Origin: a virus
DNA: 21,052 nucleotides
Strand: one strand, 5' to 3'
Virus record (IMG/VR): IMGVR_UViG_3300032342_000087
Location: 1-21,052 of that record
Translations under genes and position numbers: made by a program
Notes under the pieces: model-generated
Told to the model about the DNA's origin: nothing
Seen by the model: only the letters and a program-made list of their open reading frames with translations
Database searches by the model: none
Shown: positions 1,612-21,052 of the stretch, in pieces
Layout of the letters: every line of letters begins with the position of its first letter
How positions within the stretch are numbered: the stretch's first letter is position 1

Positions 1612-2034
1612 ATGGCTAACAACCTCGGACAGCAGTCCCAGAAGGATCTTCTGGACATCGCGCTGCGGACGACCGACTCGACCAACTGGGCAACCCCCGG
1701 TTCGATCTGGGTGGGCCTCTGCACGGCAACGCCGACCGACACGACGACCAACGAGACGACCAGTGGCAACAACTACGTCCGCAAGCAGATCACCTTCGCG
1801 CCGGCCTCGCTCGCCGCGCCGGCCGTCTCCACCGGGCCGACCATAGTCTGCACCTTCACCAGCGCCGGCGGTAGCTGGGGCACCATCAGCGGCTACGCGC
1901 TCTTCGCCGCCTCGACCGGCTCGAGCGGCACCAGCCGCTACATCGCCTACGGCACCGTGTCGCCCACGGTGGCGATCACGACCAACGACGTGGTCGAGTT
2001 CGCCGCGGGAGCCATGTCGCTCTCCTTCGACTGA
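1612..2034 (+). CDS. Small virion structural protein, phage Gp80/tail-fibre-like
   Basis: This 140-residue protein has a short helical N-terminus (residues 1-18), then a beta-rich body with the signature IWVGLCTATPTD near residues 31-42. That pattern (W/Y-VGL-T-A-P-T) is typical of small structural proteins in actinobacteriophages and related phages, annotated as Gp80-like or tail-fibre proteins. The ending, DVVEFAAGAMSLSFD, also fits that family. AAGGAG overlaps the stop codon of the preceding gene and lies about seven bases before ATG 1612, so translation is probably coupled. Where it sits in the particle is not shown. Its position ahead of the head genes leaves both a capsid fibre and a tail fibre role open. 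The assignment rests on pattern recognition. Confidence 0.65.
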   Translation: MANNLGQQSQKDLLDIALRTTDSTNWATPGSIWVGLCTATPTDTTTNETTSGNNYVRKQITFAPASLAAPAVSTGPTIVCTFTSAGGSWGTISGYALFAASTGSSGTSRYIAYGTVSPTVAITTNDVVEFAAGAMSLSFD

Positions 2035-2059: not shown

Positions 2060-2497
2060 ATGCCAGCCTCTACCTTCGGTGAACTGCTAGTCGGCAAGAC
2101 CCCGAACGAAAAGGCGGCGCTCAAGGCGCAAGGACTCGCCGCCATAATGAACGACGGTGAGTTCACGGTCGGCAACAAGACCGTGACCCTGGCAAAGCTG
2201 GTCGGGTACGACTACACGCTGAACGGCGTCACCATCACGCTGACCGGCGCGAGCTTCGACGGCGTCACGCTGATCGTGAACTGCACGGCGTCGGACGCCA
2301 ACGGGCCGCTGCCTGCCTCGACCGCCAATGCTCACCGCTTCGTCAACCCGCCGCTCATGGTCTGGATCCGCGCGCCTGGGACCAATGGTGAGTCCGACCC
2401 CGGCGATGCGACCGAGAACGTCATCACCACGGCCAAACAGTGGCTCTACGACTCCGTCGTGACCTACGCTGAGAACCACGGGTGGACTCTTGGCTAG
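2060..2497 (+). CDS. Hypothetical virion-associated protein
   Basis: I do not recognise a family for this 145-residue protein. Residues 1-35 look helical and charged (TPNEKAALKAQGLAAIMNDG). A beta-rich middle follows, with alternating hydrophobic and Thr residues (YTLNGVTITLTGASFDGVTL), and the C-terminal 20 residues look helical and aromatic. No signal peptide or membrane segment is evident. GAAGGAG about 11-12 bases before ATG 2060 supports the start. It lies between two beta-rich surface-type proteins on the same strand and shares their Thr/Ser/Gly-rich character, so a structural role is the best inference. Confidence 0.6.
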   Translation: MPASTFGELLVGKTPNEKAALKAQGLAAIMNDGEFTVGNKTVTLAKLVGYDYTLNGVTITLTGASFDGVTLIVNCTASDANGPLPASTANAHRFVNPPLMVWIRAPGTNGESDPGDATENVITTAKQWLYDSVVTYAENHGWTLG

Positions 2498-3149
2498 TCC
2501 GCTCACGGTATGGAGTTCGACGGCGGACGGGTATGCGCGCTCGTGGGACTCCTCTTATACGATAGCCCGTCAAACCGCAGGACTCGTGGGTTCTACAGGG
2601 ACATCGTCACAGGTTGGTCAAGCCTTCTCCAGTCCGAACTATATGTGCTACGAGCTTTTCACCAGCTTTGACACCTCCTCCGTAGGGGCAGGGGTAACCG
2701 TTACAGTGGCGACCCTGTCTTTCTATATGGATATCGACCTGTCGACCACTGCTGACTTCACAGTCGATGCCCGCATCTACAATTGGGGAGGAACGCTCGA
2801 AGCGGGGGATTTTCGCTCGGGAGTCCCAGCCGACGCGAACAGTCTTGATGAGTACACCTTAGTCGCCTCAAGGAGTACCACTCCAGACTGGTCTACCAGT
2901 GCCTACAGCGCCCTGACTAGTGAGTCGGCCTTCCTCACAAACGTCGCGCTGACCGGGACAACCTACGTCATCCTTAACTCCAGTAGACACCTAGCCGGAG
3001 ATGCGCCGACTGGGAGTGAAAACTTATATCTGTACCTGGCCGACGACAACACCGGCGGCGGCGGCACCGACCGCGATCCGAAGCTGTACGTGGAGTACAC
3101 AGAGGGCGCCGGCTTCGTCGGCATGACCGTGAGAAGGCCGGTGGGCTGA
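2490..3149 (+). CDS. DNRLRE-like beta-sandwich adhesin/structural protein
   Basis: The protein is 219 residues with a TTG start that overlaps the previous gene by eight bases; GGTGGA just upstream is the likely ribosome site. The core has FTSFDTSSVGAGVTVTVATL near residues 57-76, then a beta strand (SFYMDI), and ends with DPKLYVEYT near 197-205. This order (an 'F.FDTS..' strand, a 'V..ATL.FY' strand and a final 'P.L.VEYT' strand) is that of DNRLRE/CBM96-like beta-sandwich domains in surface and phage proteins. It probably binds glycan or forms part of a fibre. The gene is unlike its neighbours: bases 2581-2760 hold 95 G/C of 180 (53%) and codons ending in A or T are common, which suggests separate origin or recent transfer. 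Confidence 0.65.
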   Translation: MASPLTVWSSTADGYARSWDSSYTIARQTAGLVGSTGTSSQVGQAFSSPNYMCYELFTSFDTSSVGAGVTVTVATLSFYMDIDLSTTADFTVDARIYNWGGTLEAGDFRSGVPADANSLDEYTLVASRSTTPDWSTSAYSALTSESAFLTNVALTGTTYVILNSSRHLAGDAPTGSENLYLYLADDNTGGGGTDRDPKLYVEYTEGAGFVGMTVRRPVG

Positions 3150-3150
3150 C

Positions 3151-6027
3151 ATGGCTATCGCCTTCGTCGGAGCCGCCGTCACCGCTGGCGTCGCCAACCC
3201 CACCGGGGCGCAAACCTGGCCCATCCACGCCTCGTCTGCCGTGGGTGACTATGCGATAGGGATGCTCTACAGCCGAGGCTCCACGAAGACGCTTCACGCC
3301 ACCTCAGAGAGCGCCGCCAACCTGGGCGTCGATCTCATCATCGAGAACGGCATCAACTCCAGCTACGGCAAGCTCATCATCGTCGGCAAGACACTCGTTC
3401 AGGGCGACATCACGGTGGGCTACTTCGGCACGATGGATTTGCTCTCGGTAGCCAACGCCACGACCGGCTGGGGTTCGCTGGTCTTCTCGGGCGTCGATAC
3501 GGCTGCTCCCATCGACGCCGAGGCGACCATCGCCGGGGGAACCGCGTCCACGGCCCCGGACTGTCCCGCCGTGACCGTAGGGACCACAGGTTCCGCGATC
3601 GTCGCCGTCTGGGGTTCTGGTCAGGAGACGACCAACAACCTCGACTCGGACTTCTCGATCCCGTCCACCTACACCCTGACCACGCTGCGCTGGACGACGA
3701 CCTTGGGGTCGGACGCCGCCATGCAGGCGTTCTACAAGCTCAACGCCTCATCGGGTTCCAACGACCCCGGCACCTCGACCACCATCGTCAGCAGCTATTG
3801 GTACGCGCACACCATCTCGCTGGAAGCCAGTACCAAGAAGGCGCTGGTCACGACGGCCTCTGCGGCATCACTCAGTGCCAATAGCGCCTATCTCATCAAG
3901 CAAGTCAGGACTACTGCGGCAACGGCGAGCCTCACCGCCTCCAGCGCCTATCTCATCAAGCAGACGAGGACTATCGCGTCGTCGGCTACTCTGACGGCTT
4001 CCGACGCCCTGCTCTCCAAGGTGGCGGCGAAAAAGCAACTCCTGACTACGGCTTCGAGCGCCAGCCTCACCGCCGCTGCGGTCACCACGCGCATGTACTA
4101 TGTCGTCCAGGCGCAGGCCGCGATGACGGCAGTGCTGACCACGTCTACCGCGCTGCTCTCGAAGGCGACGAGCGTCAAGCAGATGACGACGACCGCTTCG
4201 GCGGCGTCCTTGACCGCCGACAACGCTCGTCTGTACGTCCGCAACCTGCGGACGCTGGCCTCTGCGGCTGCCCTCGCGGCGTCCACCGCCTATCTCCTCA
4301 AGCAGGCGCGTACCACGGCGTCCTCTGCCAGTCTCACCACGGGCGTCGCCAGACTGTACGTCCGCAACCTGAGAACCACGGCCTCGTCCGCCTCCCTGGC
4401 GGCCTCGACTTCGTATCTCCTCAAGCAGGCGCGTACCACGGCCTCATCGGCAAGCCTGACCACCAGCCCTGCGAGACTCTACGTCCGCAACCTGAGAACG
4501 ATCGTCTCCAGCGCCTCGCTGACCACCTCTCCGAGCGCCATGTCGAAGAGCGGGACGACCCAGTTGATCACCGTCGCCTCGACTGCTTCCCTGAGCGCCG
4601 GCAGTGCCTACCTCCTGACGCAGGCGCGCACCCTCGCCTCGTCCTCCTCGCTGACGACGACCAGCCTCCTGCTCACGAACCGCCACGGCGCCCAGACCTT
4701 GGCCGCAAGCGCCTCGCTGACAGGATCGGCTGCCTACCTGCTCAAGCAGGCGCGGACGCTGGCCGCGGATGCGGCGCTCACGACTTCGTCTGCTCGCCTG
4801 CGTCTTCGCAGCCTCAACACCACGGCGTCGAGCGCCGCGCTGACGGCATCTGCCGCGTACCTAATCGACCAGGCGCGCACGCTGGCTTCCAGCGCCTCCC
4901 TGACGGCTTCGACCGCGAGACTGCGCCTCCGCAGCCTGAGCACGACCGTCTCGAGCGCCTCGCTGGAGACTGGGACGGCGCGGCTCCGCATCCGCAGCCT
5001 GAACACTCTCGTCTCCGCGACCAACTTGGTGACAGGCAGCGTCGCGCTGAACCGACAGGGCAAGGTCTACCCGGTCACCCAGCCGTCGAGTGCCAGCCTC
5101 ACCACCGGCGTCGCTCGCCTGCGAATCCGCAGCCTGAACACCGTCGTCTCCAGCGCCGAGCTCACCACCGCGAGCAGCTACCTGCTCAAGCAAGCGCGCA
5201 CCGTCGCCTCCTCGGCCTCGCTGACCAGCACCTCTGCCCGCCTGCGCCTCCGCAGCCTGAACACGGTCGCCGCCGACGCGGTCCTGAGTTCCTCCAGCGC
5301 GTACCTGCTCAAGCAGGCGCGGACGACGGCCTCGACGGCCAGCCTGACCGCCTCGACGGCGCTCCTGACCAAGCAGGCCGCCAACAAGCAGCTTCTCACC
5401 ACGGCCTCCAGCGCCACGCTGACCGCCTCGCAGGCGTCCACGCGCGGGAACCTCAAGACGATCGCCTCCAGCGCCAGCCTGACGGCCGAGGGCCACATCC
5501 ATATGCGGAGCCTGCGTGCCACGGCTTCCTCGGCCTCGCTGACGGCTTCCAGCGCCTACCTCATCAAGCAAGCCAGGACGACAGCCTCGAGTGCCAGCCT
5601 CACCGCCGGCAACATCTCGCTCACCAACCGCCACGCGCTGATGACCGTGGCCTCGGCCTCGACGGTCACGTCCTCGAGCTCCCTGCTCCGCAGCAAGCAC
5701 GTCATGCAGACCACCGCCGGCGCCGCCTCATTCAGCACCTCGAGCGCGACGATGAAGATGACCCACCGTCTGATGACGACCGCCTCCGCGGCGTCGCTGA
5801 CGGCGGCCGACGCATGGCTGGGACGCGAGGGCTTCGTCCGCATCCAGACGCTGCCCAGTTCGGCCTCGCTCACGACCTCTGCGAGGGTGCGCCTCAAGGC
5901 GACCTACCACATCACCAGGGCTGAGATCTCCTACAACGGCTGGCGTACCCGCGGCATCACTACGACATGGAACGCTCCCCAGAAGGTCGATAAGGGCCAC
6001 TGGACAGCCAAGCTGGAAGAGAGGTGA
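3151..6027 (+). CDS. Long Ser/Thr-rich repeat protein, probable virion fibre
   Basis: The protein has 958 residues. Residues 1-230 form a beta-rich domain of a kind seen in phage fibre proteins: an early hydrophobic strand, SSAVGDYAIGMLYSRG, GSAIVAVWGSGQET, then an aromatic strand (SSYWYAHTISLEAS). Residues 231-911 contain about 32 imperfect repeats, mostly 19-25 residues long, with the core TTASSASLTASSA. Two lead-in types recur and often alternate: YLLKQAR and RLYVRNL or RLRLRSL. The last 47 residues form a non-repeated cap (ITRAEISYNGW, then a Lys/Trp-rich end). The repeat length is compatible with a beta-solenoid coil, but the fold is unproven. Ser and Thr dominate the cores, so dense O-glycosylation is possible. 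ATG 3151 follows the previous stop by one base, with only a weak GAGAAGG site. The virion location is inferred from context. Confidence 0.75.
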   Translation: MAIAFVGAAVTAGVANPTGAQTWPIHASSAVGDYAIGMLYSRGSTKTLHATSESAANLGVDLIIENGINSSYGKLIIVGKTLVQGDITVGYFGTMDLLSVANATTGWGSLVFSGVDTAAPIDAEATIAGGTASTAPDCPAVTVGTTGSAIVAVWGSGQETTNNLDSDFSIPSTYTLTTLRWTTTLGSDAAMQAFYKLNASSGSNDPGTSTTIVSSYWYAHTISLEASTKKALVTTASAASLSANSAYLIKQVRTTAATASLTASSAYLIKQTRTIASSATLTASDALLSKVAAKKQLLTTASSASLTAAAVTTRMYYVVQAQAAMTAVLTTSTALLSKATSVKQMTTTASAASLTADNARLYVRNLRTLASAAALAASTAYLLKQARTTASSASLTTGVARLYVRNLRTTASSASLAASTSYLLKQARTTASSASLTTSPARLYVRNLRTIVSSASLTTSPSAMSKSGTTQLITVASTASLSAGSAYLLTQARTLASSSSLTTTSLLLTNRHGAQTLAASASLTGSAAYLLKQARTLAADAALTTSSARLRLRSLNTTASSAALTASAAYLIDQARTLASSASLTASTARLRLRSLSTTVSSASLETGTARLRIRSLNTLVSATNLVTGSVALNRQGKVYPVTQPSSASLTTGVARLRIRSLNTVVSSAELTTASSYLLKQARTVASSASLTSTSARLRLRSLNTVAADAVLSSSSAYLLKQARTTASTASLTASTALLTKQAANKQLLTTASSATLTASQASTRGNLKTIASSASLTAEGHIHMRSLRATASSASLTASSAYLIKQARTTASSASLTAGNISLTNRHALMTVASASTVTSSSSLLRSKHVMQTTAGAASFSTSSATMKMTHRLMTTASAASLTAADAWLGREGFVRIQTLPSSASLTTSARVRLKATYHITRAEISYNGWRTRGITTTWNAPQKVDKGHWTAKLEER
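3841..5883 (+). repeat. In-frame tandem repeat array, about 32 units of 57-75 bp
   Basis: Direct repeats lie within the reading frame. The exact period is 60 bp at the start: a block ending AGCGCCTATCTCATCAAG recurs at 3883-3900 and 3943-3960. A higher-order 123 bp dimer is visible where TATCTCCTCAAGCAGGCGCG occurs at 4291 and again at 4414. Other units are 57-75 bp. Later units share protein sequence but use many different synonymous codons, so most duplications look old. Confidence 0.85.
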
Positions 6028-6031
6028 GTTT

Positions 6032-6346
6032 ATGACCGTCGAATACGTCCACGACTCGGTCGAGTACATCCGAGTGCAGATGACGGTGGAGAAGAACGGC
6101 GCCGTCTTCGACCCCACGAGCGATGTGGTGAAGATGACCTTCACCGAAGAAGACAGTCTCGTCGGGACGGAGTCCTGGTACGTCGGCTCTTGGGAGACGG
6201 CGGGCAGCAAGTACTTCGCCCGCTGCCTCGTCGGTCCCGCTCCCGGCCTCGTGGAGCTCACGCACGGTACGTGGTTCGTCTGGGTCAAGGTCACCGACAA
6301 CCCTGAGACGCCCATCAAGCGCGCCGGCGTGGTCGAAGTGTACTGA
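6032..6346 (+). CDS. Hypothetical beta-rich phage structural protein
   Basis: The protein has 104 residues and a beta-sandwich-like pattern: YVHDSVEYIRVQMTV (4-18), DVVKMTFTEED (31-41), SWYVGSWET (48-56), KYFARCLVGP (60-69) and THGTWFVWVKVTDNPE (77-92). I cannot name a family with confidence, though small proteins of this kind occur in siphovirus structural clusters. GAGAGGTGAG overlaps the previous stop and lies just before ATG 6032. The stop overlaps the next start in TGATG, so it is probably coupled to the minor head gene. A role as capsid-surface or fibre-attachment protein is inference from its place between the repeat protein and the head genes. Confidence 0.6.
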   Translation: MTVEYVHDSVEYIRVQMTVEKNGAVFDPTSDVVKMTFTEEDSLVGTESWYVGSWETAGSKYFARCLVGPAPGLVELTHGTWFVWVKVTDNPETPIKRAGVVEVY

Positions 6347-7212
6347 TGCTCGCGGAGGCTCTGGACAAGGCGCTTCAGCACACGCTCTACCTGCACCGCA
6401 TCGAGGCGCTCGCGCCTGCGGTGGCGCAGCTTGAGCGCGACGCAGGACGCATGTTCATCCTCCAGAGCTACGACGTGTTGACGGAGATCTACCAGGCCGA
6501 CCTCTCCGAGGCGACGCAGGAGGAGAAGGACGACCGCCGGCTGGCGCTCATCCTCGCGGCGATCGCCGCCGCCCTGGCCGCCCGCATCGGCAAGGACGTG
6601 CTCATCCTGCGGCCGGGGCTGCTCGCGGCCCTGACCGCTGCGGTCACCCAGTCGGCGCTCGCCAAGTACGGCATCACCGGCGACCTCCGCTCCGTCCGCG
6701 CCCAGCAGTACCTCATCGAGCACGGCGCGGATCTCGTCAAAGGCATCAACGACTACACGCGCGAGCGCATGGGCCGGCTCATCGCCCAAGGCCTCGCCAA
6801 GGGCCAGAGCGTCGAGGACATCGCCGGCACCCTGATGACCAGCTTCGATGACATGGGCTGGGCACGCGCGCGGCGCATCGCCATCACCGAGGCCAACAAG
6901 GCGTGGAGCTACGCCGAGCTCGAGAGCGCCTACGACATGGAGAAGGCCGGCTACGGGATGGTCAAGGAGTGGATCCTCGGCCCGATGCATCCACGCTACG
7001 ACATCTGTGACCACAACAACGAGCAGGGCGCCATCCCTGTTCACAACCTCTTCTCGAGCGGCGACATGGCACCGCCGCAGCACCCGAACTGCGGGTGCGG
7101 ACTCATCACTTACCCAGCGGACGGAAACCAACCCTGGGGCAGCCAGGTGAACGGCCAGACGCCGCTCATGCCGTTTGGGTTCGACCAAGGAGATCAGAAT
7201 GCCAACCGATGA
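6346..7212 (+). CDS. Phage Mu gpF/SPP1 gp7-like minor head protein
   Basis: The protein has 288 residues, close to a minimal MuF-type protein. Residues 1-110 are helical and Ala/Leu-rich, including a hydrophobic helix at about 64-80 that need not be a membrane segment. The C-terminal half carries the MuF signature: RARRIAITEANKAW at 174-187, a Trp strand (KEWILGP), PRYDICDHN at 216-224, and PPQHPNCGCG at 243-252 with Cys249 and Cys251. The Asp/Cys/His pattern resembles the family's conserved metal-binding-like core. In Mu and SPP1 this protein binds portal or capsid and enters the procapsid, where it affects DNA handling. The portal gene would be expected just upstream but is not here, since the surface block lies there instead. 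The end overlaps the protease gene by 14 bases. Confidence 0.88.
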   Translation: MLAEALDKALQHTLYLHRIEALAPAVAQLERDAGRMFILQSYDVLTEIYQADLSEATQEEKDDRRLALILAAIAAALAARIGKDVLILRPGLLAALTAAVTQSALAKYGITGDLRSVRAQQYLIEHGADLVKGINDYTRERMGRLIAQGLAKGQSVEDIAGTLMTSFDDMGWARARRIAITEANKAWSYAELESAYDMEKAGYGMVKEWILGPMHPRYDICDHNNEQGAIPVHNLFSSGDMAPPQHPNCGCGLITYPADGNQPWGSQVNGQTPLMPFGFDQGDQNANR

Positions 7213-8371
7213 CGACCTGAAGACCGAAGAGACGGCAGACTTCGACACCGAGATGGTGCCGCTGGTCGAGCGCGCCGTGCGCCAGGACAACACCATCGAC
7301 CTGAAGCTCATCGCCCCCGGCTGGGGATCGAGCGGCTACTACAGCGCCGAGCTCCTGCGCGAGGACGGCCCCAAGGCGTGGGCACCGGGCACCCATATGT
7401 ACCTCGACCACCCGACCGAGAGCGAGTCCAAGGAGCGCCCCGAGCGCAGCGTCAAGGATCTCGCCGGCGTCATCGTCAGCGTGCCCGAGTTCCGCGAGAA
7501 GGGCGCCGCCGGCCCCGGCCTCTACGCCAAGGCCAGCGTCCTGCCGCCCTACAAGGATGTCATCGAGGCGCTCGCGCCGCACATCGGCGTCTCCATCCGC
7601 GCGCACGGCTCGTTCTCGCCGGGTGAAGCGGAGGGCCGCGAGGGCCGCATCATCAACCACATCGCCAAGGGCGAGAGCGTCGACTTTGTCACCAAGCCCG
7701 GTGCCGGCGGCAAGGTGCTCGCCCTCATGGAGAGCCTGCGCCAGAAGGGCTCTCAGGATGTGCCAACATCCAACGTGATGAACAGCAACTTCGTACAGGT
7801 CGAGGGAAGCTCGGCTCTCCCGACGATCACGACAACCACCACGGCCGCCAGTGGGACGTTCTACATCCCGGCCGGCGGCACCGTGTCCGAAGGACAGACC
7901 CAGGAGGAACGCGATATGGAGCTCAAAGAAGCTCAGGAGCAGATCACCACGCTCCAGACCGAACTCGAAGAGTCCAAGGAGACGACCACCGAGGCCACCA
8001 TCCGCGCCGACCGCGCCGAAGGTGCTCTCGCCATCCTCGAGGCGCAGCGTGAAGCCGCCAGCCTGATGGAGAACGTCAGCCTGCCGGCCGCGGCGAAGCA
8101 GCGCATCACCGCCAAGGTCACCATCAATCCCAAGCGTGCCGAGGACGGCACCCTCGACAAGGACGCCCTCAAGGAGGCCGTCGAGGTCGAGAAGAAGATC
8201 GAAGCCGACTACATCGAGTCCATCGTCGGCGCCGGCAAGGTCACCGATCAGGGCAGCAAAAGCGGCGAGCCCGTGGACGACACCAAGGTCAAGGAAAGTC
8301 TCGGTCACGGCTTGGGCAAGTTCTTCGGCCTGAGTGACGAGGCCGCGAAGCGCGCCGTTGACGGCCGCTAG
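7199..8371 (+). CDS. Capsid maturation protease fused to scaffold
   Basis: The full product is 390 residues. Residues about 30-185 form the protease domain with landmarks LKLIAPGWGSSGYYSAELL (35-53), GTHMYLDHPT (64-73), SVKDLAGVI (84-92) and HIGVSIRAHGSF (128-139). By comparison with phage prohead proteases, His71 and Ser132 are the best candidates for catalytic residues; this is inference. A Thr/Gly-rich linker covers about 186-235. Residues 240-390 are charged and helical with a likely coiled coil at 240-290, as in scaffolds. The protease cuts scaffold and itself in the procapsid so DNA can enter. AAGGAG at 7187-7192 lies six bases before ATG 7199, favouring it over an in-frame TTG at 7175. 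An internal start for free scaffold is listed separately. Confidence 0.85.
   Translation: MPTDDDLKTEETADFDTEMVPLVERAVRQDNTIDLKLIAPGWGSSGYYSAELLREDGPKAWAPGTHMYLDHPTESESKERPERSVKDLAGVIVSVPEFREKGAAGPGLYAKASVLPPYKDVIEALAPHIGVSIRAHGSFSPGEAEGREGRIINHIAKGESVDFVTKPGAGGKVLALMESLRQKGSQDVPTSNVMNSNFVQVEGSSALPTITTTTTAASGTFYIPAGGTVSEGQTQEERDMELKEAQEQITTLQTELEESKETTTEATIRADRAEGALAILEAQREAASLMENVSLPAAAKQRITAKVTINPKRAEDGTLDKDALKEAVEVEKKIEADYIESIVGAGKVTDQGSKSGEPVDDTKVKESLGHGLGKFFGLSDEAAKRAVDGR
7902..7907 (+). promoter_or_regulatory. Internal Shine-Dalgarno site for the scaffold start
   Basis: AGGAGG lies inside the protease-scaffold gene, eight bases before the in-frame ATG at 7916. It is as strong as the site of the major capsid gene, and it lies exactly where the linker ends and the coiled coil begins. 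Confidence 0.7.
7916..8371 (+). CDS. Internally initiated scaffold protein
   Basis: This in-frame internal product is 151 residues and equals residues 240-390 of the protease-scaffold fusion. The start codon follows an AGGAGG at ideal spacing. The protein begins with a heptad-like, charged helix (MELKEAQEQITTLQTELEES) and ends in a charged region with a Lys/Arg-containing tail (EAAKRAVDGR). Phage lambda makes Nu3 from inside C, and other phages make scaffold from inside the protease gene, so the logic is established. Many scaffold copies and few protease copies are needed per procapsid, which internal initiation would provide. That the site is used here is inference from sequence. Confidence 0.7.
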   Translation: MELKEAQEQITTLQTELEESKETTTEATIRADRAEGALAILEAQREAASLMENVSLPAAAKQRITAKVTINPKRAEDGTLDKDALKEAVEVEKKIEADYIESIVGAGKVTDQGSKSGEPVDDTKVKESLGHGLGKFFGLSDEAAKRAVDGR

Positions 8372-8384
8372 GAGGTAAAGAGAC

Positions 8385-8741
8385 ATGCCGACCAACGAAG
8401 TCTACAAAGACGCGGTCAACATCCCGCTCGTCGTGGGGGCCAGCGTGGCCGCCCGCAACCCGGTCCTCGTGGGCAAGATCCCCGGCGTCACCCAGACGGC
8501 CACGGGTGCCTCGGGCACCACGACCGCCACCGTTGCCACCGAGGGCATGTACCGCTGCTCGGTCACCGCCAACGATGGCAGCGCCACCACGGTGGCCCAG
8601 GGCGACATCCTGTACTTCTCGGGCACCAACGCCTCGCCGACGCTCAACAAGAACACCGGCGGCACCCGCTGGGGATACGCCGCCGAGGCGATCTCCGCGA
8701 GCGGTGCCCAGCAGACCATCAAAGTCATCGTCGGATACTGA
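8385..8741 (+). CDS. Head decoration protein, DUF2190-like
   Basis: The protein has 118 residues. It opens with IPLVVGASVAARNPVLVGKI (13-32), continues through GMYRCSV (54-60) and VAQGDILYFSG (70-80), and ends TIKVIVGY. This short beta-barrel pattern (an early 'V..G..V..G.PV..G' region, a 'G.Y..', a '.GD.LYF' strand and a final I-V strand) matches DUF2190-type capsid decoration proteins, which lie between protease/scaffold and capsid genes in many phages. GGAGG at 8371-8375 lies nine bases before ATG 8385. It probably sits on the outer capsid surface and stabilises it. The next gene encodes an enlarged paralogue. Confidence 0.75.
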   Translation: MPTNEVYKDAVNIPLVVGASVAARNPVLVGKIPGVTQTATGASGTTTATVATEGMYRCSVTANDGSATTVAQGDILYFSGTNASPTLNKNTGGTRWGYAAEAISASGAQQTIKVIVGY

Positions 8742-8757
8742 GGGTGGTGACTGACTG

Positions 8758-9999
8758 ATGGCGACGAACGAACAGTACAAGAAGGCGTGGATCGTCCCAC
8801 TGACCGTGGGAGCAAGCGTCGCCGCGCGTACCCCGATGTGCGTCGGCAAGTTGGCCGGCGTCACCCTGACCCCGACCGGCTCCAGCGGCACCCAGGTCGC
8901 CTCGTTCCTGCGCCACGGCGTCGTGAACGTGCCCGTGGTCAGCGACTGCGACGCCGTGACCCTGGCTCTGGCCTCGGTCACCAACACGCAGACGCTCATC
9001 ATCAACGGCTTCACCTACACGGCGACCACGGCGACGACCACATGGTCGACGCGCAACTACTCGATCGCCGGCACCGACGCCCAGGACGCCGGCCTGCTCC
9101 TGAAGGCCATCAACGGCGGCCCCTACGTCACTCTGGCCGGCGCAGCCGCGGCCGACTGGGTCAGGGTGAACGGTCTGACCTTCACCGCGCACACCAGCAC
9201 CACCACGGCGGCCAACCGTGAGTTCTCCATCGCGGGCACCGACACGCAGGACGCCACCGAACTCGTGACCGTGCTGAACGACGCCACCTACGGCATCGCT
9301 CCGTACGTCGCCACGCAGAGCTCCGCGGGCGAGGTCATCATCCAGCCCCCGACAGGCTACCCCTGCGCGGCCTACCCGGCAGCGGTCGTCACCTCGAGCA
9401 ACGGCACCCGGCTGGCAGTCGCCACGCTGGCGCCGCTGAAGGACTGCATCGCCACGCTCGCGACCGCGACCATCACGGTCAAGTCGAGCGAGGTCATCAG
9501 CGCAGTCACCGGCACGGCCTCTGGCGCGACGGTCACGGTCAACCACGCGGTCACAAGCACGAAACCCGTGTTCCAGGGTGACAGCGTCTACTGGACGACC
9601 CCGAGCACGCTCAACTGCAAGGCTGAGACGGGCACCGCCTTCTACGGTCGCGTGACCGAAGCCGGCGGCGTTCAGGACCGCAAGATCACCCTCGCCTCGG
9701 TGACCAACAGCCAGACCGTGGTCATCAACGGCATCGTGTTCACGGCGCACACCAACACCACGACGATGAGCACGAAGACCTTCAGCATCAGCGGCGACGA
9801 CACCGCGGACGCTGCCGAGCTCGCTTCCATCATCAACAGCCCCATCTACGGTCTGAGCGGCTTCACCGCGACGGCCGCGGTCGGGGTCATCACCCTGGCC
9901 TACAACGGCGACATCGTCGTGACAGGCACAGCTCGTACCGCCGGCACCCTCACGGTCGCCCCTGGTACGCGCACCATCAAGGTCAAGATCGGCTACTGA
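8758..9999 (+). CDS. Enlarged decoration paralogue with inserted display modules
   Basis: The protein has 413 residues. Residues 1-62 align with the preceding decoration protein (IVPLTVGASVAARTPMCVGK against IPLVVGASVAARNPVLVGKI). Residues about 247-304 continue that fold (VFQGDSVYWT against VAQGDILYFS), and the end IKVKIGY matches IKVIVGY. Extra sequence is inserted at two points: about 66-245 and about 305-397. These hold three related modules (about 66-125, 131-196, 308-380) with the pattern V-x-I/V-NG-x-x-F/Y-TA, then F/Y-SI-x-G-x-D-x-x-DA, then IN or LN. Similar beta-rich modules occur in other phage structural proteins. The likely role is a capsid-surface spike that displays adhesive domains. 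The ribosome site before ATG 8758 is poor (GAGGGTGGTGA), so expression may depend on coupling. Confidence 0.72.
   Translation: MATNEQYKKAWIVPLTVGASVAARTPMCVGKLAGVTLTPTGSSGTQVASFLRHGVVNVPVVSDCDAVTLALASVTNTQTLIINGFTYTATTATTTWSTRNYSIAGTDAQDAGLLLKAINGGPYVTLAGAAAADWVRVNGLTFTAHTSTTTAANREFSIAGTDTQDATELVTVLNDATYGIAPYVATQSSAGEVIIQPPTGYPCAAYPAAVVTSSNGTRLAVATLAPLKDCIATLATATITVKSSEVISAVTGTASGATVTVNHAVTSTKPVFQGDSVYWTTPSTLNCKAETGTAFYGRVTEAGGVQDRKITLASVTNSQTVVINGIVFTAHTNTTTMSTKTFSISGDDTADAAELASIINSPIYGLSGFTATAAVGVITLAYNGDIVVTGTARTAGTLTVAPGTRTIKVKIGY
8953..9132 (+). repeat. Display module 1 (coding repeat)
   Basis: This encodes about residues 66-125 of the enlarged decoration protein, with LASVTNTQTLIINGFTYTAT and YSIAGTDAQDA as landmarks. 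It is related to the modules at 9148 and 9679. Confidence 0.6.
9148..9345 (+). repeat. Display module 2 (coding repeat)
   Basis: This encodes about residues 131-196, with WVRVNGLTFTAHTSTTT and FSIAGTDTQDATEL as landmarks. It lacks the ALASVTN lead-in shared by modules 1 and 3. Confidence 0.6.
9679..9948 (+). repeat. Display module 3 (coding repeat)
   Basis: This encodes about residues 308-397, with TLASVTNSQTVVINGIVFTA and FSISGDDTADAAEL as landmarks. It lies in a different loop of the decoration fold from modules 1 and 2. Confidence 0.6.
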
Positions 10000-10016: not shown

Positions 10017-11201
10017 ATGCCCGACGAGATCATCACCAAGATCGAAGAGACGAAAGATGAGGCGAGCACCGACGCCGACCTCATGAGCGTCCTCGGTCGT
10101 GAGAGCGGCTTCGCGAAGAAGCGCTACTCCAAGGAGGTCGTCAACACCTTCATGGAGACGCTGAACCGCGCCGCCGAAGGCAGCAACTTCGCCTACTACC
10201 AGTTGAAGGAGGCGATGGTCACCGCCGACTTCGCCTACCTGTTCGGTGACGTGCTCGACCGCAGCCTCATGGCCGCGTGGGGCACGACCATGCCGTCCTG
10301 GCGCAGCTACATCCAGACCGGCACGGTGCGCGACTTCCGTCAGGCCAAGATGCTCGGCATCGAGGGCATGGGAGCCGTGCTCGACAGCGTCGGGGAGCGC
10401 GCTGAGTACCCCGAGCGTGGACCGAGCGAAGAGACGCCGATCACGCGCCAGGTGAGCAAGTACGGCGCCCGCTTCGGCATCTCGTTCGAGGCCATGATCA
10501 ACGACGACCTCGGCGCCCTGCGCGACCTCCCCAACCGTCTGGTCGAGGCCGCCCGCCGCACCGAGGCTCTCGCGGCCAGCAAGATGTACGTAGGGACGGC
10601 CGGTTTCAACACGGCCATGTACAACGACGCCACCTATGACAACATCGTGAACACCCACGCGGGTGCCGCGAGCAACAACCCCGTCCTCTCACTGGCGAAC
10701 CTCGCCCAGGGGTTCCTGGTGCTCGGCAGCCACAAGGACATCGACGGGTTCCCGATCGTCATGGACGCCGTCACCCTCGTGGTGCCGCCGGCCCTGCGGA
10801 TCACCGCCAACAACATCCTCAACGCGACTGAGATCATGGTCGCCTCGGGTGGCGGCGCCTACAACGCCGCCGACCAGATCCGCGTCGCCAACTGGATGCG
10901 GAACAACCTGACCGTCGAGGTCGATCCCTACATCTCGATGACGGCCACCAGCAACGCCTCGACGTGCTGGTTCCTGTTCGCCTCCAAGGGTGCGCCGCGC
11001 ACCGCAGTCCAGATGGACTACCTGAGCGGCCACGAGAGCCCCGAGCTGTTCGTGAAGACCCCCAACGCCTCGCGCGTCGGCGGCGGCACCGTTCCTGAGT
11101 CGTTCGAGAACGACAGCCAGGAGTTCAAGTGCCGTCACGTCTTCGGGCTCACCCAGATCGCCCCGTGGGCGACCGTGGCGTCGAACGGCTCTGGCGCCTG
11201 A
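10017..11201 (+). CDS. Major capsid protein, HK97 fold
   Basis: The protein has 394 residues, a usual size for an HK97-fold capsid protein that lacks a large cleaved N-terminal domain. AGGAGG at 10006-10011 lies five bases before ATG 10017 and is among the best ribosome sites in the window, which fits high expression. Recognisable parts are an N-terminal helix region, FRQAKMLGIEGMGAVLDSV near 103-121, an E-loop-like segment (PERGPSEETPITRQVSKYG, about 127-145), FGISFEAMINDDLGALRDLP near 147-166, and a C-terminal domain with VPPALRITANNIL and RHVFGLTQIAPWA. The position after protease, scaffold and decoration genes and before connector genes is standard. It resembles Mu gpT-type capsid proteins more than lambda gpE, but that finer placement is uncertain. 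Confidence 0.88.
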   Translation: MPDEIITKIEETKDEASTDADLMSVLGRESGFAKKRYSKEVVNTFMETLNRAAEGSNFAYYQLKEAMVTADFAYLFGDVLDRSLMAAWGTTMPSWRSYIQTGTVRDFRQAKMLGIEGMGAVLDSVGERAEYPERGPSEETPITRQVSKYGARFGISFEAMINDDLGALRDLPNRLVEAARRTEALAASKMYVGTAGFNTAMYNDATYDNIVNTHAGAASNNPVLSLANLAQGFLVLGSHKDIDGFPIVMDAVTLVVPPALRITANNILNATEIMVASGGGAYNAADQIRVANWMRNNLTVEVDPYISMTATSNASTCWFLFASKGAPRTAVQMDYLSGHESPELFVKTPNASRVGGGTVPESFENDSQEFKCRHVFGLTQIAPWATVASNGSGA

Positions 11202-15365: not shown

Positions 15366-18194
15366 GTGGCTAACTTCTACGGCGAACTCGTCATTCGCAT
15401 CACCAGTGACACTACTGGCCTGAAGAAGGGGCTGAACGAGTCGGCCGCTGCCGTCGCCTCCACGGGGGCCGCGGCGAACAAGAGCGGCCGACTCGCAGCC
15501 CAGCGCATGGAACACGTCGGCCGGCAGATGCAGAACGTCGGCCGGCAGATGACGCAGTTCGTCACCCTGCCCATCGCCGCCGGCTTTGCAATTGCCGGCG
15601 TGGCTGCCTTCAAGTACCAAGACAACCTGATGAAGATTCAGAACCTCACTGGGACTAACGCGGCCCAGACGAAAGCGTGGGGCGACGAACTCTTGAAGCT
15701 CGGGGCCGCCACCGGCCAGACTCCCATCAAGCTCAGTGAGGCGCTCTACTTCGTGGCGAGCTCTGGCTTTGCCGGCGCCGAGGCCATGAAGGTCATCGAC
15801 GTGTCGGCTAAGGCCGCCGCCGCCGGTATGGGCGATGTCATGGTCACCGCCGATGTTTTGACGAGTGCGATGAACGCCTATGGTCATTCCGCGTACACCG
15901 CCGCAGAGGTCACCGACTACCTGATGAAGACAGTCGAGGTCGGCAAGGCCGAGCCGGTCGCCCTGGCGAACTCCCTCGGCCGCATCATGCCGGTCGCCGC
16001 CCAACTCAAGGTCGGCCTGGACGAACTCGGCGGCAACGTCGCCGCCCTGACCCTTGGCGGCCTCTCGAGCGCGGAGGCGGTCACCGCCCTGCGCGGCACG
16101 ATGATGGCCCTCGTCGCGCCGGCGAAGATGAGCATCGACCAACTGAAGACGATGGGCCTCTCCTATCAGGATGTCACCGACTCAATCGCCAAGAAGGGCT
16201 TGCTGCCGACGCTGAAGATGCTCTGGGAGCGCACCGATCACAACATGCTCTCGATGCGGAAGATCATCCCCAACGTGCGCGCCCTGAACGGTGTACTGTC
16301 GCTGCTGGGTGCGAACTACCAGAGCAACCTCAAGGTCATCGACAAGGTCGCGAACGCGCACGGCGCCCTTGACCGCGCCATGAAGAACACCGCCCAGCAG
16401 CCCGTGCAGAAACTCAGGCAGGCGTGGGCATCGTTGCAGGCGTCGTTCATCAAGGTCGGCGCTGTCGTGCTGCCGTTCTTCGCGCGCATCGCCGCATGGC
16501 TCGCCAAGGTGGCTGACAGCCTCGCCTCGATGTCTCCTGGCTGGCGCAACTTCATCCTCATCATGGCTGCGGTCGCCGCTGCGGTCGGTCCCGTGGTGAT
16601 GATTCTCGGCACGTTCATCAACGCCATCGGCCTCATCCGCGGAGCTCTTCCCGGCCTCATGATCGTGAAGTCGCTCGGCGCGCTGTTCTCTGGCTTCCAA
16701 GCCGGCGGCGCGGCCAGCGGCGTGATGGCCTTTACCGCCGCTCTCGGGCCGCTCAGGTTGGCCCTGCTGGGCGTCGCCGTTGCCGCCGCTGCCTTCTACG
16801 GCTTCGTCAAAGTCAGCGACTGGCTTGACGGCACGACGGAGCGCATTGGCGCCATGAGGAAGGCTGCTGAAGCTGCTGCCGCAGATGACTCGCTCAAGCA
16901 GTGGGCCGACAAGTTCCTCGGTGGTCACCTCGAGGCAGTAGGCAAGAACGACTTCGTCTTCAAGGCGGCCGTCGAAATAGACACTCCGACCGACCTCATC
17001 AAGAACTGGGTCGCGACGGCTGCGGCACAAGCGAAGGCGGCTGCGAACGAGGGCAAGCAGCAGAGCATGATTGACCAGGCTCTCGGCCAGAAGGCCGACT
17101 GGGAGCAGCGCATCCACGAAATCGAGAGTATGCCGGCGCTGTCGCGCAACATCGGCGGCGCGAACGAAAAGATTATGGCAGATCGCAATGCCGAGATAGC
17201 CGCTCTCAAGCAGAATCTCTTGGGCCTACAGCCCCTGCTCGGCTCGCTCGGCATTCAGATGGCCGACCTGAAGGTTCACGACCAGGCGATGGTCTTCAAG
17301 GCCAACATGACCGACATCAAGACCAAGGTCAAGGACGTGAACCAGCAGCTCCAGGGGCTCAAAGGTAAGCCGCACACCATCAAGCTCATCCTTCGTGAGA
17401 TGGCCCTGCGCGACCGTCTAAGCGCCCTCAAGAACCAGTTGAGCAAGGTGGCCGGCAAGAGCTATCAGGTCAGACTTCACGTCCGCATCGAGACGCTGGA
17501 GACGAAGATCGACCAGGCGAAGCGACGCCTCGCAGAGCTCGTCGGCACAGGAACGGGCGCCGGGGGAAAGCGCAAGTACTCTCCCGAGGTCAGCGCGGAC
17601 ATCAGGAAGATCACGAGGTTCCTCAAGAAGGCCGAAGCTCAGTCGGCGGCCATGAAGACGAAGGTCGAGGCGGCCAAGCCCACGATCGACATGAACGCGG
17701 ATTCTGCACTGGACAAGTTGGCGGCCGTCACGCAGGCGATGGACGGCATCAACGGCAGAGATGTCACCGGCACCGTGAACATCATCGTGAACCAGATCCC
17801 CGGCAGCGACGGCAAGGGTGGGCACAGAGGCGGCATCTTCAGCGGGCCGCACTCAGGCTATCCGATGACGCTCCACGGCCGCGAGGTCGTGCTTCCACTC
17901 GAGCACCCGAACCTCATCCCTGGACTTCTCCAGCGCGCCGGCGTCACGAAGCTCATCCAGCCCGAGGCTGTCCCACTCCAGAGCACCAGAGGAGCCGCTT
18001 CCGTGCAGCGCCCACTGGCCGCTACTGGGACTGACGGATCGCCGGCGGTGACCGAGCTCCACTACCACTCGCACGTCTACGTTCCCGGTGGCACGACCAT
18101 CGTCGGAACGGCTGAACAGGTCGCGACGACCCTGGCGCCGCACATCGAGCGGTCCCTGGCTAAGACCCACAGTCGCAGGGGAAGAGGCCGCTGA
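15366..18194 (+). CDS. Tape-measure protein
   Basis: The protein has 942 residues, starting at GTG 15366 with an AAAGGTGAG site just upstream. Residues about 60-290 hold the PhageMin_Tail core: YQDNLMKIQNLTGTNAAQTK, ALYFVASSGFAGAEAMKVID, and LDELGGNVAALTLGGLSSAE. Hydrophobic stretches lie at about 396-430 and 462-481, as expected for the part that enters the host membrane. Residues about 560-800 are long, charged helices. The C-terminus has GGIFSGPHSGYPM and HGREVVLPLEHPNLIPGLLQ near 836-858, a frequent ending of such proteins, and a basic tail (SRRGRGR). At about 0.15 nm per helical residue the tail would be about 140 nm; this is an estimate. No lysozyme or peptidase motif was noticed. Confidence 0.9.
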   Translation: MANFYGELVIRITSDTTGLKKGLNESAAAVASTGAAANKSGRLAAQRMEHVGRQMQNVGRQMTQFVTLPIAAGFAIAGVAAFKYQDNLMKIQNLTGTNAAQTKAWGDELLKLGAATGQTPIKLSEALYFVASSGFAGAEAMKVIDVSAKAAAAGMGDVMVTADVLTSAMNAYGHSAYTAAEVTDYLMKTVEVGKAEPVALANSLGRIMPVAAQLKVGLDELGGNVAALTLGGLSSAEAVTALRGTMMALVAPAKMSIDQLKTMGLSYQDVTDSIAKKGLLPTLKMLWERTDHNMLSMRKIIPNVRALNGVLSLLGANYQSNLKVIDKVANAHGALDRAMKNTAQQPVQKLRQAWASLQASFIKVGAVVLPFFARIAAWLAKVADSLASMSPGWRNFILIMAAVAAAVGPVVMILGTFINAIGLIRGALPGLMIVKSLGALFSGFQAGGAASGVMAFTAALGPLRLALLGVAVAAAAFYGFVKVSDWLDGTTERIGAMRKAAEAAAADDSLKQWADKFLGGHLEAVGKNDFVFKAAVEIDTPTDLIKNWVATAAAQAKAAANEGKQQSMIDQALGQKADWEQRIHEIESMPALSRNIGGANEKIMADRNAEIAALKQNLLGLQPLLGSLGIQMADLKVHDQAMVFKANMTDIKTKVKDVNQQLQGLKGKPHTIKLILREMALRDRLSALKNQLSKVAGKSYQVRLHVRIETLETKIDQAKRRLAELVGTGTGAGGKRKYSPEVSADIRKITRFLKKAEAQSAAMKTKVEAAKPTIDMNADSALDKLAAVTQAMDGINGRDVTGTVNIIVNQIPGSDGKGGHRGGIFSGPHSGYPMTLHGREVVLPLEHPNLIPGLLQRAGVTKLIQPEAVPLQSTRGAASVQRPLAATGTDGSPAVTELHYHSHVYVPGGTTIVGTAEQVATTLAPHIERSLAKTHSRRGRGR

Positions 18195-19966
18195 TGGCCG
18201 CTCCATGCGTCATCAGTGCGGGCACGGTGGTCGAGGACTTCAGCGACAAGGCCGAGTTCACGGCAGACGGGACTCAGATCGTGTCCACGTATCATCACTG
18301 GCGCTGCCTTGACGATATGTCGAAGCGCGGCGTGGCGACGCGGCACAGCTACACGGCGACTCCGACCACCGGGTACATCACGAAGACCGGCATGAGTCTT
18401 AGCTTGGCCGGCCTGAACGCCCTGCGCTTCGACTTCCGTCACTACGCACCAGCCGAGGCTTACAGCACTCCCTGCGCCCTCGGTCTTGAGTTCTCCTCGA
18501 CGGGCGACTTCGGCACGAAGTGTATGCGCGCGACGTACGGGCCGACGACCAATCTCCCGCCGGGGTACGGGCCTTTCCGCTGGCTCATCGGATCGTCTGA
18601 GTGGACCTCAGTGGGCAGCGAGTCGTGGTCGAACACGATGGTCGCCATGCGCGTCAGCCTGACTCCGCTGTGGCCTGCCTACGGCATCATGTACTCGCCG
18701 TACTTCTTCCTCGACAAGTTGGTGCTGAACCCCGTGACGACCCCGCTCGTGGTGCTGTCGTTTGACAGCGCAAGCACGGCGACGACAGACATCACGCAGG
18801 ATGCGCTGGCCGACTACGGTTTCAGCGGTAAGGGATTCGCCAACATGGTCGACTCCGACAACGTCGGAGACACGGGCTACAACACTTGGCCCCAACTCAA
18901 GGCTCTCGACTCAGCCGGTCTTCGGATGATCCCACAGCACACGAACTGGCTGCTTCAGTCGCCGCGCAACACTGACGGCATCCTCAACAGGCCGGTCCCG
19001 CCGTACCCCGTCGAGGACACCGACTACGTCGGGGCAGACGACTCCACGAACAACGTCTTCGTCAGCTACGAGCACTTCGCCTTGATAGACCAGTACCTGC
19101 GCTCCATCCACGCCTACTACGGCATCCCGTGGACACGCGACCTGTTCAACCCGCACTCTGGTCTGGCGAACGGTCTGGACGTGACGCGCTTCTACCGCGA
19201 TTTCGGCTTCAGGTCCGTTGCCGTACGCGCCGACTGGCAGTCGAGCACCATCAAGCAGACGCCCTACCACACGCTGCCGATAGTCGAGGGCAACTTCTGC
19301 GCGTGGAACATCGCCACGTCTACGGCGACGCACGCCAACGTGATGAGCGCCATCGCTGAAGTCGTGTCCTACGGTCGCTACCTGCATCTCAGCTACGGGC
19401 CAGTACCGGGCTCTTGGACAGAGGCAGATTTGCGCCTGGAGCTTGCCGAACTGCGACGGCTGGAAGACCTCGGCAGCCTTACGGTCGTGACGCTCTCAGA
19501 GTTCCTTGATCTGAACGGCGTCCCGCCTACTTCTGATGGGAGCGTTGACGTGAGCCTGACCTTTGGAGCATCAAACCTCGACATCAACGACCACGTCACC
19601 TACTTCCTGATGCCCGACGTGGACTTCGGTGAGAGAGCGAAGATCTACGACGAGTTCCGCAGCTACGGCGACAGTCTCACGGTGGCACAGTGCAACGTGA
19701 CTGAGGCGTCCATCATCCCGATGGCTATCCCGCTTCTCGTGAAGGCAGCCACGCCGACTGCACTCCGCACCGCCATCGACGCCATCAACGCCGTCATCGA
19801 CGGTGGCCCTTGCCCCCTCGTCTACAACGACGGCTCAGGGGCTCTCACGTACCACGTCCTGCACTCACCGCGCGTGAACTATGTCAGATCACAGGACTCG
19901 ATTCTCGGCTGCTATACGAACATCACGCTGAACCTCGTGCGGACGCCCATCGTGGACGGAGCCTGA
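18194..19966 (+). CDS. Tail tip protein with degenerate polysaccharide-deacetylase domain
   Basis: The protein has 590 residues in three parts. Residues 1-185 look like a carbohydrate-binding beta-sandwich (VVEDFSDKAEFT, then PYFFLDKLVLNPV). Residues about 186-430 follow a NodB/polysaccharide-deacetylase pattern: VVLSFDSAST at 187-196, QLKALDSAGLRMIPQHTNWL at about 234-253, FNPHSG at 318-323, FYRDFGFRSVAVRADW and LHLSYG at 397-402. The usual FDDG is FDSA here, and H-S/T-x-x-H is H249-T-N-W-L253, so two metal ligands appear missing and catalysis is doubtful. Residues about 447-590 are a separate beta-rich domain, which may anchor to the tail. The gene directly follows the tape measure, the slot of Dit-like proteins, with a TGATG overlap. 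Receptor or cell-wall glycan binding is the best guess. Confidence 0.7.
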   Translation: MAAPCVISAGTVVEDFSDKAEFTADGTQIVSTYHHWRCLDDMSKRGVATRHSYTATPTTGYITKTGMSLSLAGLNALRFDFRHYAPAEAYSTPCALGLEFSSTGDFGTKCMRATYGPTTNLPPGYGPFRWLIGSSEWTSVGSESWSNTMVAMRVSLTPLWPAYGIMYSPYFFLDKLVLNPVTTPLVVLSFDSASTATTDITQDALADYGFSGKGFANMVDSDNVGDTGYNTWPQLKALDSAGLRMIPQHTNWLLQSPRNTDGILNRPVPPYPVEDTDYVGADDSTNNVFVSYEHFALIDQYLRSIHAYYGIPWTRDLFNPHSGLANGLDVTRFYRDFGFRSVAVRADWQSSTIKQTPYHTLPIVEGNFCAWNIATSTATHANVMSAIAEVVSYGRYLHLSYGPVPGSWTEADLRLELAELRRLEDLGSLTVVTLSEFLDLNGVPPTSDGSVDVSLTFGASNLDINDHVTYFLMPDVDFGERAKIYDEFRSYGDSLTVAQCNVTEASIIPMAIPLLVKAATPTALRTAIDAINAVIDGGPCPLVYNDGSGALTYHVLHSPRVNYVRSQDSILGCYTNITLNLVRTPIVDGA

Positions 19967-21052
19967 TGCCACACGGAGATCCTCTAGCGACGGTAACCGG
20001 CCTCGACCCGGCCAGCGGTCCTCCTGGCACGATGGTCGTCATCACCGGGACGCACTTCCACGTAGACACCGTAGACGTGCGCTTCGGCGCGGTCAGCGTC
20101 GGGGCGAACTTCAGAATCCTGAGCGACGAGTGCATCGTCGCCTATGCGCCCGACAACACCGGGGCTGTCGATGTCCACGTCGACAACATGGGCGGCACCG
20201 GCACCGCGCATACTGTGTTCACCTATGACACCTACGTCGGCCCACCCGGCGGCGGGGGCGGCGGTACTCCTACGGTGACCAGTGTCGTGCCGAACGTCGC
20301 CGTCAAGAACGACGGTGGCGACGCGATAGCCGTTCTCGGGACGAACTTCACCACGGCCAAGGCGGTCAGGTTCCAGAAGTCGTTCAAGGTCGTTGCCGGG
20401 TCCAGCGTACAGCTTCTCGCCGGGAAGGCCGATGGCGGCTTGACTGAGGGCAACAACGCCGACCCGACCTCTACGTGGGACAATCTCGCCGGGACAGACG
20501 GCACGCTGACCAACTTCGGCTACGTGCTTGGCGACCGCCCGCGCACCAACACCGAGACGGACAAGGCGGTCTGGAGCGACCAGTCCCAGTACGGGAACGA
20601 CGGTACTCTCAACGGGTTCGCCTACACTCCCGCGAGCGGCTGGGCAGGAGACGGCTCGGGAAGCAACCCGTATCGGCTCGTCTTCGACGGCAGCAACGAC
20701 TATGTAGCCCTGCCCGACCTTGGCACCGCAACTATCGAAGATGGCTCAGCCAGCTACGAAGTCTGGTTCATGACCACCAGTACGGCGTCTGGCGATCATC
20801 CCATCATCGGTGAAGACAACGCGGGCTCCTACCCGGCAGCGGCGTTGCTTGTCAACGGTGGCTATCTCAAGGCGGTCACATGGGACTCGGGTGGAGTCGC
20901 TGCGGTAGTGACGAGCCCCGGTCAGGTGTCTAACGGACTGCTTCATCATGCGGTCATCACTGTGGCGAGCACGGTCCAGACCTTGTATCTCGACGGCTAT
21001 GCGGTTACCCCCAACCCGACCACTACCGCGAAGACTGTCGGGACGGTGACCA
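19966..21052 (+). CDS. IPT/TIG and LamG-like tail fibre protein, partial
   Basis: The reading frame starts at ATG 19966 in a TGATG overlap and is open to the window edge, so 362 residues are visible. Residues 8-89 are an IPT/TIG domain (VTGLDPASGPPGTMVVITGT, then VDVRFGAVSV and AVDVHVDN). A Gly-rich hinge lies at 93-102. A second IPT/TIG begins at about 103 (PTVTSVVPNVAVKNDGGDAI, VLGTNFT, KAVRF) but stops after about 40 residues. From about 160 a concanavalin/LamG-like domain follows, with DGTLTNFGYV and later NDGTLNGFAYT, LVFDGSNDYVALP at 238-250, SYEVWFMTTS and LYLDGYAV. This is a carbohydrate-binding fold. Tail-tip or fibre function fits the position. Confidence 0.78.
   Translation, partial: MPHGDPLATVTGLDPASGPPGTMVVITGTHFHVDTVDVRFGAVSVGANFRILSDECIVAYAPDNTGAVDVHVDNMGGTGTAHTVFTYDTYVGPPGGGGGGTPTVTSVVPNVAVKNDGGDAIAVLGTNFTTAKAVRFQKSFKVVAGSSVQLLAGKADGGLTEGNNADPTSTWDNLAGTDGTLTNFGYVLGDRPRTNTETDKAVWSDQSQYGNDGTLNGFAYTPASGWAGDGSGSNPYRLVFDGSNDYVALPDLGTATIEDGSASYEVWFMTTSTASGDHPIIGEDNAGSYPAAALLVNGGYLKAVTWDSGGVAAVVTSPGQVSNGLLHHAVITVASTVQTLYLDGYAVTPNPTTTAKTVGTVT

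Follow-up and report, generated by a model that had tools for sequence, protein, structure and literature searches.

A 32-unit Ser/Thr repeat protein among viral head genes: a candidate C-terminally anchored adhesion fibre with an exchangeable repeat array

What kind of structure is encoded by a long open reading frame that consists mostly of short Ser/Thr repeats and lies within the virion genes of a virus, and how much of it is kept in related genomes? The whole stretch of DNA analysed here (the window) is an IMG/VR virus record of 21,052 bases with a G+C content of 64.6%. Our favoured answer is that positions 3151-6027 encode a virion adhesion fibre of a tailed phage, anchored by its C-terminus, with a beta-arch shaft, attached to the head in preference to the tail, and with repeat arrays that can be exchanged; on this claim as a whole we are evenly divided. 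Two related loci, L005 (IMGVR_UViG_3300032164_000188) and L016 (IMGVR_UViG_3300031918_000082), carry the comparison. The relevant features of the window are as follows.

1612-2034, plus strand: phrog_240 'head protein', with a homologue in the same module of L016.
2490-3149, plus strand: 219-aa protein directly upstream of the proposed fibre gene; the L016 homologue is 32% identical in alignment.
3151-6027, plus strand (ATG at 3151, stop at 6027): 958-aa repeat protein, the proposed fibre; 98 kDa, pI 10.8.
3151-3849, plus strand: non-repeat N-terminal domain, residues 1-233, acidic (pI 4.5); proposed distal binding domain.
3850-5910, plus strand: 32 tandem units of 20-26 aa each, with two predicted strands per unit.
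5911-6024, plus strand: C-terminal cap, approximately residues 921-958 (~38 residues, Trp/Lys-rich), with NGWRTRG..TTWNAPQKVDKGHWTAKLEER.
6032-6346, plus strand: 104-aa protein directly downstream; found at the same place in L005 and L016 with 46-50% identity.
6346-7212, plus strand: MuF/minor head protein, 59% identical to that of L005; marks the head block.
7175-8371, plus strand: head maturation protease (phrog_15531, 2e-29).
10017-11201, plus strand: major capsid protein; protease and capsid PHROGs both match.
15366-18194, plus strand: tape measure.

The virion block on the plus strand reads, 5' to 3', phrog_240, a 145-aa ORF, the 219-aa gene, the repeat protein, the 104-aa gene, MuF, protease and capsid, and is followed by connectors, two major-tail-protein-like genes, the tape measure and tail-tip candidates. 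Placement of the repeat gene in a virion block, as proposed in an earlier note on this DNA, is thus supported by phrog_240 upstream and by MuF, protease and capsid downstream. The 219-aa gene stops one base before the ATG of the repeat gene, as in translationally coupled phage genes; its product looks like an all-beta jelly-roll by sequence impression and has no match in Pfam. Genes typical of the region behind a tape measure occupy 18194-21051, away from the repeat gene. Among isolated viruses, the closest capsid proteins have only 28-35% identity to that of the window, those of Methanoculleus viruses leading, and no comparable module was found between the portal and MuF/protease genes of Blf4, L008, Molivia and Yappy.

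Several other plus-strand products of the window were noted. A 527-aa protein inside the virion block (25-1608) contains a Methyltransf_11 domain (Pfam E 6e-9), and its N-terminal half reads as glycosyltransferase-like. At 8385-8741 and 8758-9999, the start of a 413-aa protein resembles a small protein that L005 and L004 encode one position earlier (M[PA]TNExYK..PLTVGASVAAR). The 413-aa protein contains three copies of a motif of ~50 aa (..INGxxFTAHTxTTTxxxxxFSIxGxDxxDAxEL..), also present in L004, L005 and L016, and may be a capsid decoration protein that was duplicated and received additional domains. Behind the tape measure, the middle of a 590-aa protein (18194-19966) reads as a polysaccharide deacetylase (NodB), with no match in Pfam or NCBIfam, and a frame with TIG and laminin-G domains (19810-21051), cut at the end of the window, is a probable tail-tip adhesin.

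Segmentation of the repeat protein gave exactly 32 units between residue 234 and approximately residue 920, composed largely of Ser, Thr, Ala and Leu. Twelve of the 32 units are 20 residues long and eight are 21, the others ranging from 22 to 26 residues; the last unit continues into the cap. The unit core, T-T-A-S-S-A-S-L-T-A/T-S, leads into a second segment that mainly takes one of two forms: AYLLKQAR in type A, the 20-residue units (consensus TTASSASLTASSAYLLKQAR), and ARLYVRNLR or ARLRLRSLN in type B, the 21-residue units (consensus TTASSASLTTSxARLRLRSLN). Counts in the core columns (n = 32 units) are 30 for T1, 26 for A3, 26 for S4, 28 for A6, 29 for L8, 23 for T9, 21 for A13 and 26 for L15. 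The turn column 11 is occupied by Ser in 17 units and by Gly in six, and no turn Gly or Pro is invariant. Altogether Ala, Ser, Thr and Leu account for 67% of the repeat region and Gly for 2.4%. The region is strongly basic (pI 11.8 for residues 234-899, with 65 Lys/Arg against 10 Asp/Glu), and the protein plots on the folded side of the Uversky hydropathy/charge diagram.

Self-identity of the protein equals 0.268 at lag 20 and 0.307 at lag 41, compared with a maximum of 0.184 over lags 15-49 in 1000 composition-preserving shuffles, so the 20/41 periodicity is beyond chance. The two lead-in types alternate more often than expected (10 adjacent A-B contacts against 5.0, p=0.005), with a clean fit to type A or B for only 18 of the 32 units; this alternation accounts for the 123-bp period reported by Tandem Repeats Finder at 4234-4521. 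The repeat spacing, the two lead-ins and the shared core that had been read from the DNA by eye are therefore real features of the gene. Inter-unit dS ranges from ~0.9 to 1.3, and dN/dS equals 0.24 among type A units, 0.42 among type B units and, in the 12-residue core across all units, 0.47, values that are rough because synonymous divergence is near saturation; random codon pairing as a control gave a pN/pS of 1.21. Given dN/dS of 0.24-0.47, not near 1, with dS near 1, the units are old copies constrained at the protein level and not freshly slipped ones. The synonymous drift with protein-level conservation noticed earlier likewise holds.

A capsid search of IMG/VR retrieved L004-L007 at 69-88% identity, plus more distant loci; the capsid protein of L005 is 86% identical to that of the window. 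In the corresponding slot L005 encodes a 628-aa protein with ~24 units, mostly of 23 residues (GFTSEAKSAVVVAGSKTDWIAEA), followed by homologues of the 104-aa and MuF genes. L016, located via a search with the 104-aa gene, encodes an 810-aa protein with ~30 units of 23 residues (EMTLTKESVSAVTVAPSVAHAVL) in the order portal, phrog_240, structural-looking ORFs, 219-aa homologue, repeat protein, 104-aa, MuF, protease and capsid. Profile alignment identifies the L005 array as a homologue of the L016 array (hhalign probability 97%, E 1.4e-11). In contrast, no homology to the window array was detectable for either (hhalign probability 0.1 and 0.05, in a comparison with a working positive control), and the unit HMMs concur. 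Both relatives also have acidic repeat proteins, with pI 4.7 in L016 and 5.1 in L005. The L005 protein matches PF13229 (3.6e-7) but also SymE_toxin (1.6e-9), and its repeats may inflate both scores.

The ends of these proteins behave differently. A C-terminal 'GW' cap, SGWRTS..GNWTVSAPESGWPMKKPR, is common to L005 and L016. The window cap NGWRTRGITTTWNAPQKVDKGHWTAKLEER weakly resembles that of L005 (local score 45, reached by 1 of 1000 shuffles), and its score against the L016 cap is 36, reached by 23 of 1000 shuffles. The 5' parts of the L005 and L016 genes differ and contain no equivalent of the N-terminal domain of the window protein. Thus the slot proteins share their position, a similar unit length (23 residues in L005 and L016), richness in Ser, Thr, Ala and Val, a Trp/Lys C-terminus and, for L016, two predicted strands per unit, whereas they differ in repeat family by profile comparison, in charge (the window array being basic, not acidic) and in the N-terminal domain of the window protein, for which L005 and L016 have no equivalent. 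Because the syntenic repeat proteins are not detectably homologous to the window array, built of 23-mers and acidic, we conclude that the slot is conserved, whereas its array varies between genomes in sequence, in period and in charge. The 'exchange' of arrays is drawn from three genomes, the only loci found with this slot, and the window-type repeat from one example.

Additional observations were made at the related loci. One unit of the 810-aa protein of L016 (6495-8927) is interrupted by ~38 residues resembling part of a fibronectin-III domain (LTGLTAGEHYYVRFYATNPDGTGYGGEVQF), and a partial motif similar to this insert occurs in the L016 ORF at 3698-4789. In L005, a laminin-G ORF (200-550, Pfam E 1.3e-10) occupies the place of the 219-aa jelly-roll-like gene of the window and L016; therefore the neighbour gene of the fibre may be exchanged too. 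L014, the other end of IMGVR_UViG_3300037486_000231 with 88% capsid identity, has one ORF that looks like a tyrosine recombinase and another that looks like a DNA cytosine methyltransferase, which suggests a temperate phage.

Searches for further relatives of the window protein gave uniformly negative results. Neither the protein nor its N-terminus matched Pfam, PHROGs or NCBIfam; sequence matches in the PDB were at chance level; and tblastn against phages (INPHARED) and plasmids found no relative, with a low-complexity filter that may mask repeats. The earlier note's impression that this is not a described family is accordingly sustained within Pfam, PHROGs, NCBIfam, PDB and INPHARED. The N-terminal domain and the repeats had no match in IMG/VR, and no fetched locus yielded a homologue of the domain. 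The codon pattern for YLLKQAR-T occurred as nine single matches in IMG/VR and as 40 single matches in GTDB genomes, none of them within a matching repeat array. A capsid-profile scan of GTDB genomes detected no prophage relative, and scans with MuF, the 104-aa protein and the L005 repeat returned L005 and L016 only. An autocorrelation screen found no repeat protein in the distant loci L006-L013, while the L004 contig begins too far downstream for the slot, its early genes lying at the other end.

Structure prediction with AlphaFold2 was applied to units 6-11 of the window protein, with the protein's own other segments serving as a shallow pseudo-alignment. The best model has a mean pLDDT of 69.7, a pTM of 0.63 and two strands per unit; it is the one good model in five, the remaining four having pLDDT of 39-56. 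The L016 array with its cap also gave two strands per unit (pLDDT 56, pTM 0.54), and the cap itself is predicted to be disordered (pLDDT below 50). Foldseek searches with both models returned mostly beta-solenoids as top PDB matches (FapC amyloid, GlmU, LpxD, ice-binding proteins, hemolysin A and HxuA), although none was significant, all E-values being at least 0.1 for the PDB and at least 0.03 for BFVD. With modest confidence, the models thus support beta structure and are compatible with a solenoid without proving it. Of the beta-solenoid suggested earlier, the beta part with two predicted strands per unit stands for the six units modelled, where full disorder was not predicted, but the solenoid is not established.

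Known repeat families were compared with the window unit. The curlin (CsgA) repeat has 23+/-5 residues, a strand-arc-strand fold, an N-x-psi-x-psi-x-Q signature and X-G-X-X loops, and some curlin relatives have Ser/Thr cores (PMC10192328). The window unit of 20/21 residues falls within this range, has two strands predicted with modest confidence and would similarly alternate small or hydrophobic residues inside with polar residues outside. However, curlin membership was rejected: the unit contains neither the N...Q nor the X-G-X-X signature, no conserved core Asn or Gly and no Pfam curlin match. The window also lacks csg genes, and its repeats form a long single-chain array with non-repeat ends. 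Triple beta-spirals of adenovirus and reovirus are trimeric and consist of ~15-residue repeats in which a turn Gly/Pro is conserved. As proposed for the window protein, these fibrous shafts place short beta repeats between anchor and distal domain, but the period of 20/21 instead of ~15 and the variable turn residue exclude this assignment. A collagen-like phage fibre (Gly-X-Y) was dismissed for the low Gly content of the repeat region, and profiles of right-handed parallel beta-helices (tailspike/pectate-lyase type) did not match the protein.

In the mechanism that we propose, each unit would form two short beta-strands joined by turns, and the units would stack into a stiff shaft with Ala, Leu and Val inward and Ser, Thr, Arg and Lys outward. 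The short Trp/Lys-rich C-terminus would fasten the fibre to the virion, more probably to the capsid than to the tail. The N-terminal domain would be distal and, together with the basic shaft, could bind the anionic cell surface reversibly before the tail engages. Swapping of the array as a block between related phages would alter the length, charge and binding of the fibre and leave the slot itself in place. Since the cap is the end shared by L005 and L016 and the N-terminal domain has no equivalent there, we infer that the fibre is more likely to be rooted by its C-terminus, with the N-terminal domain at the tip. The base, shaft and tip layout outlined in the earlier note therefore survives in its three parts, but its polarity is probably reversed.

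Attachment to the head is favoured because of the gene order, and the same position among head genes counts against a tail fibre or minor tail protein encoded outside the tail module, with its N-terminus on the tail and its C-terminus distal. N-terminal anchoring is the usual polarity of tail fibres, which suits this alternative; a tail position keeps substantial probability because the phages Molivia (gene 23) and Yappy (gene 49), related by capsid, carry 'minor tail protein' genes just before terminase/portal. Nevertheless, the end conserved in L005 and L016 is the C-terminus, the N-terminal domain having no homologue in the fetched loci, and we rate such a tail fibre as rather unlikely. Basic repeats next to head genes might also belong to an internal or ejected head protein that binds packaged DNA. 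The neighbouring genes resemble exterior beta-sandwich and lectin-type proteins, and the acidic occupants of the slot in L005 and L016 show that DNA binding does not go with the slot as such, which leaves this explanation most improbable.

The shaft of the proposed fibre could alternatively be trimeric, triple beta-spiral-like or other, rather than a single-chain solenoid; the function would be the same and the two compete on shaft detail only. Phage fibres are mostly trimeric, either architecture would suit strands of 6-9 residues whose side chains point inward and outward in turn, and modest confidence in a monomer model is expected if partner chains are missing. Against these points stand repeats of 20-21 or 23 residues instead of 15, no invariant turn Gly/Pro, and the mostly single-chain beta-solenoids among the nearest, non-significant Foldseek folds, so that we see a trimer as possible but unlikely. 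An array produced by low-complexity slippage, with no fold or selected function, would agree with the dominance of four residues in the repeat region and with an array that has no homologue in the searched collections. It is very improbable in view of the inter-unit dN/dS at dS near 1, the conserved hydrophobic columns, the placement on the folded side by hydropathy and charge, and the repeat proteins kept in this slot by two relatives.

Head fibres and decorations of the Hoc, pb10 and gp12 type are established parts in host adhesion (PMC7602432, PMC12796354). The proposed C-terminally anchored fibre resembles phi29 gp8.5, SPP1 gp12, T4 Hoc, T5 pb10 and the capsid fibres of Agrobacterium phage 7-7-1 in its placement among head genes, as seen in the window, and in forming a putative virion extension. 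It would also share with capsid fibres and decorations an initial or non-essential role in adhesion and the succession of anchor, shaft and distal domain. On the other hand, the fibres of phi29 are built of alpha-helices, SPP1 gp12 resembles collagen, and Hoc and pb10 contain Ig domains. A Ser/Thr beta repeat of 32 units occurs in none of them, and no sequence link was found between the window protein and phi29 gp8.5, SPP1 gp12, T4 Hoc or the 7-7-1 capsid fibres.

What is new is therefore an undescribed repeat family within a known kind of structure, together with a whole-array exchange that rests on three loci. In its strongest form, the whole shaft of a C-terminally anchored, monomeric, curli-like beta-arch fibre would have been replaced by an unrelated family, with a switch in surface charge from acidic to basic, among phages whose capsids are 86% identical; we consider this full combination doubtful. 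With 32 natural variants of an undescribed and very regular beta-repeat inside a single gene, the array is useful for repeat-protein structure work. Accounts of how phage host range evolves usually centre on the swapping of fibre tips or of receptor-binding domains. If true, the present reading would add a whole-shaft analogue of tail-fibre tip swapping, in which the small anchor and the neighbour genes are kept, and would provide a natural series for the contribution of the shaft itself through its length, charge and stickiness.
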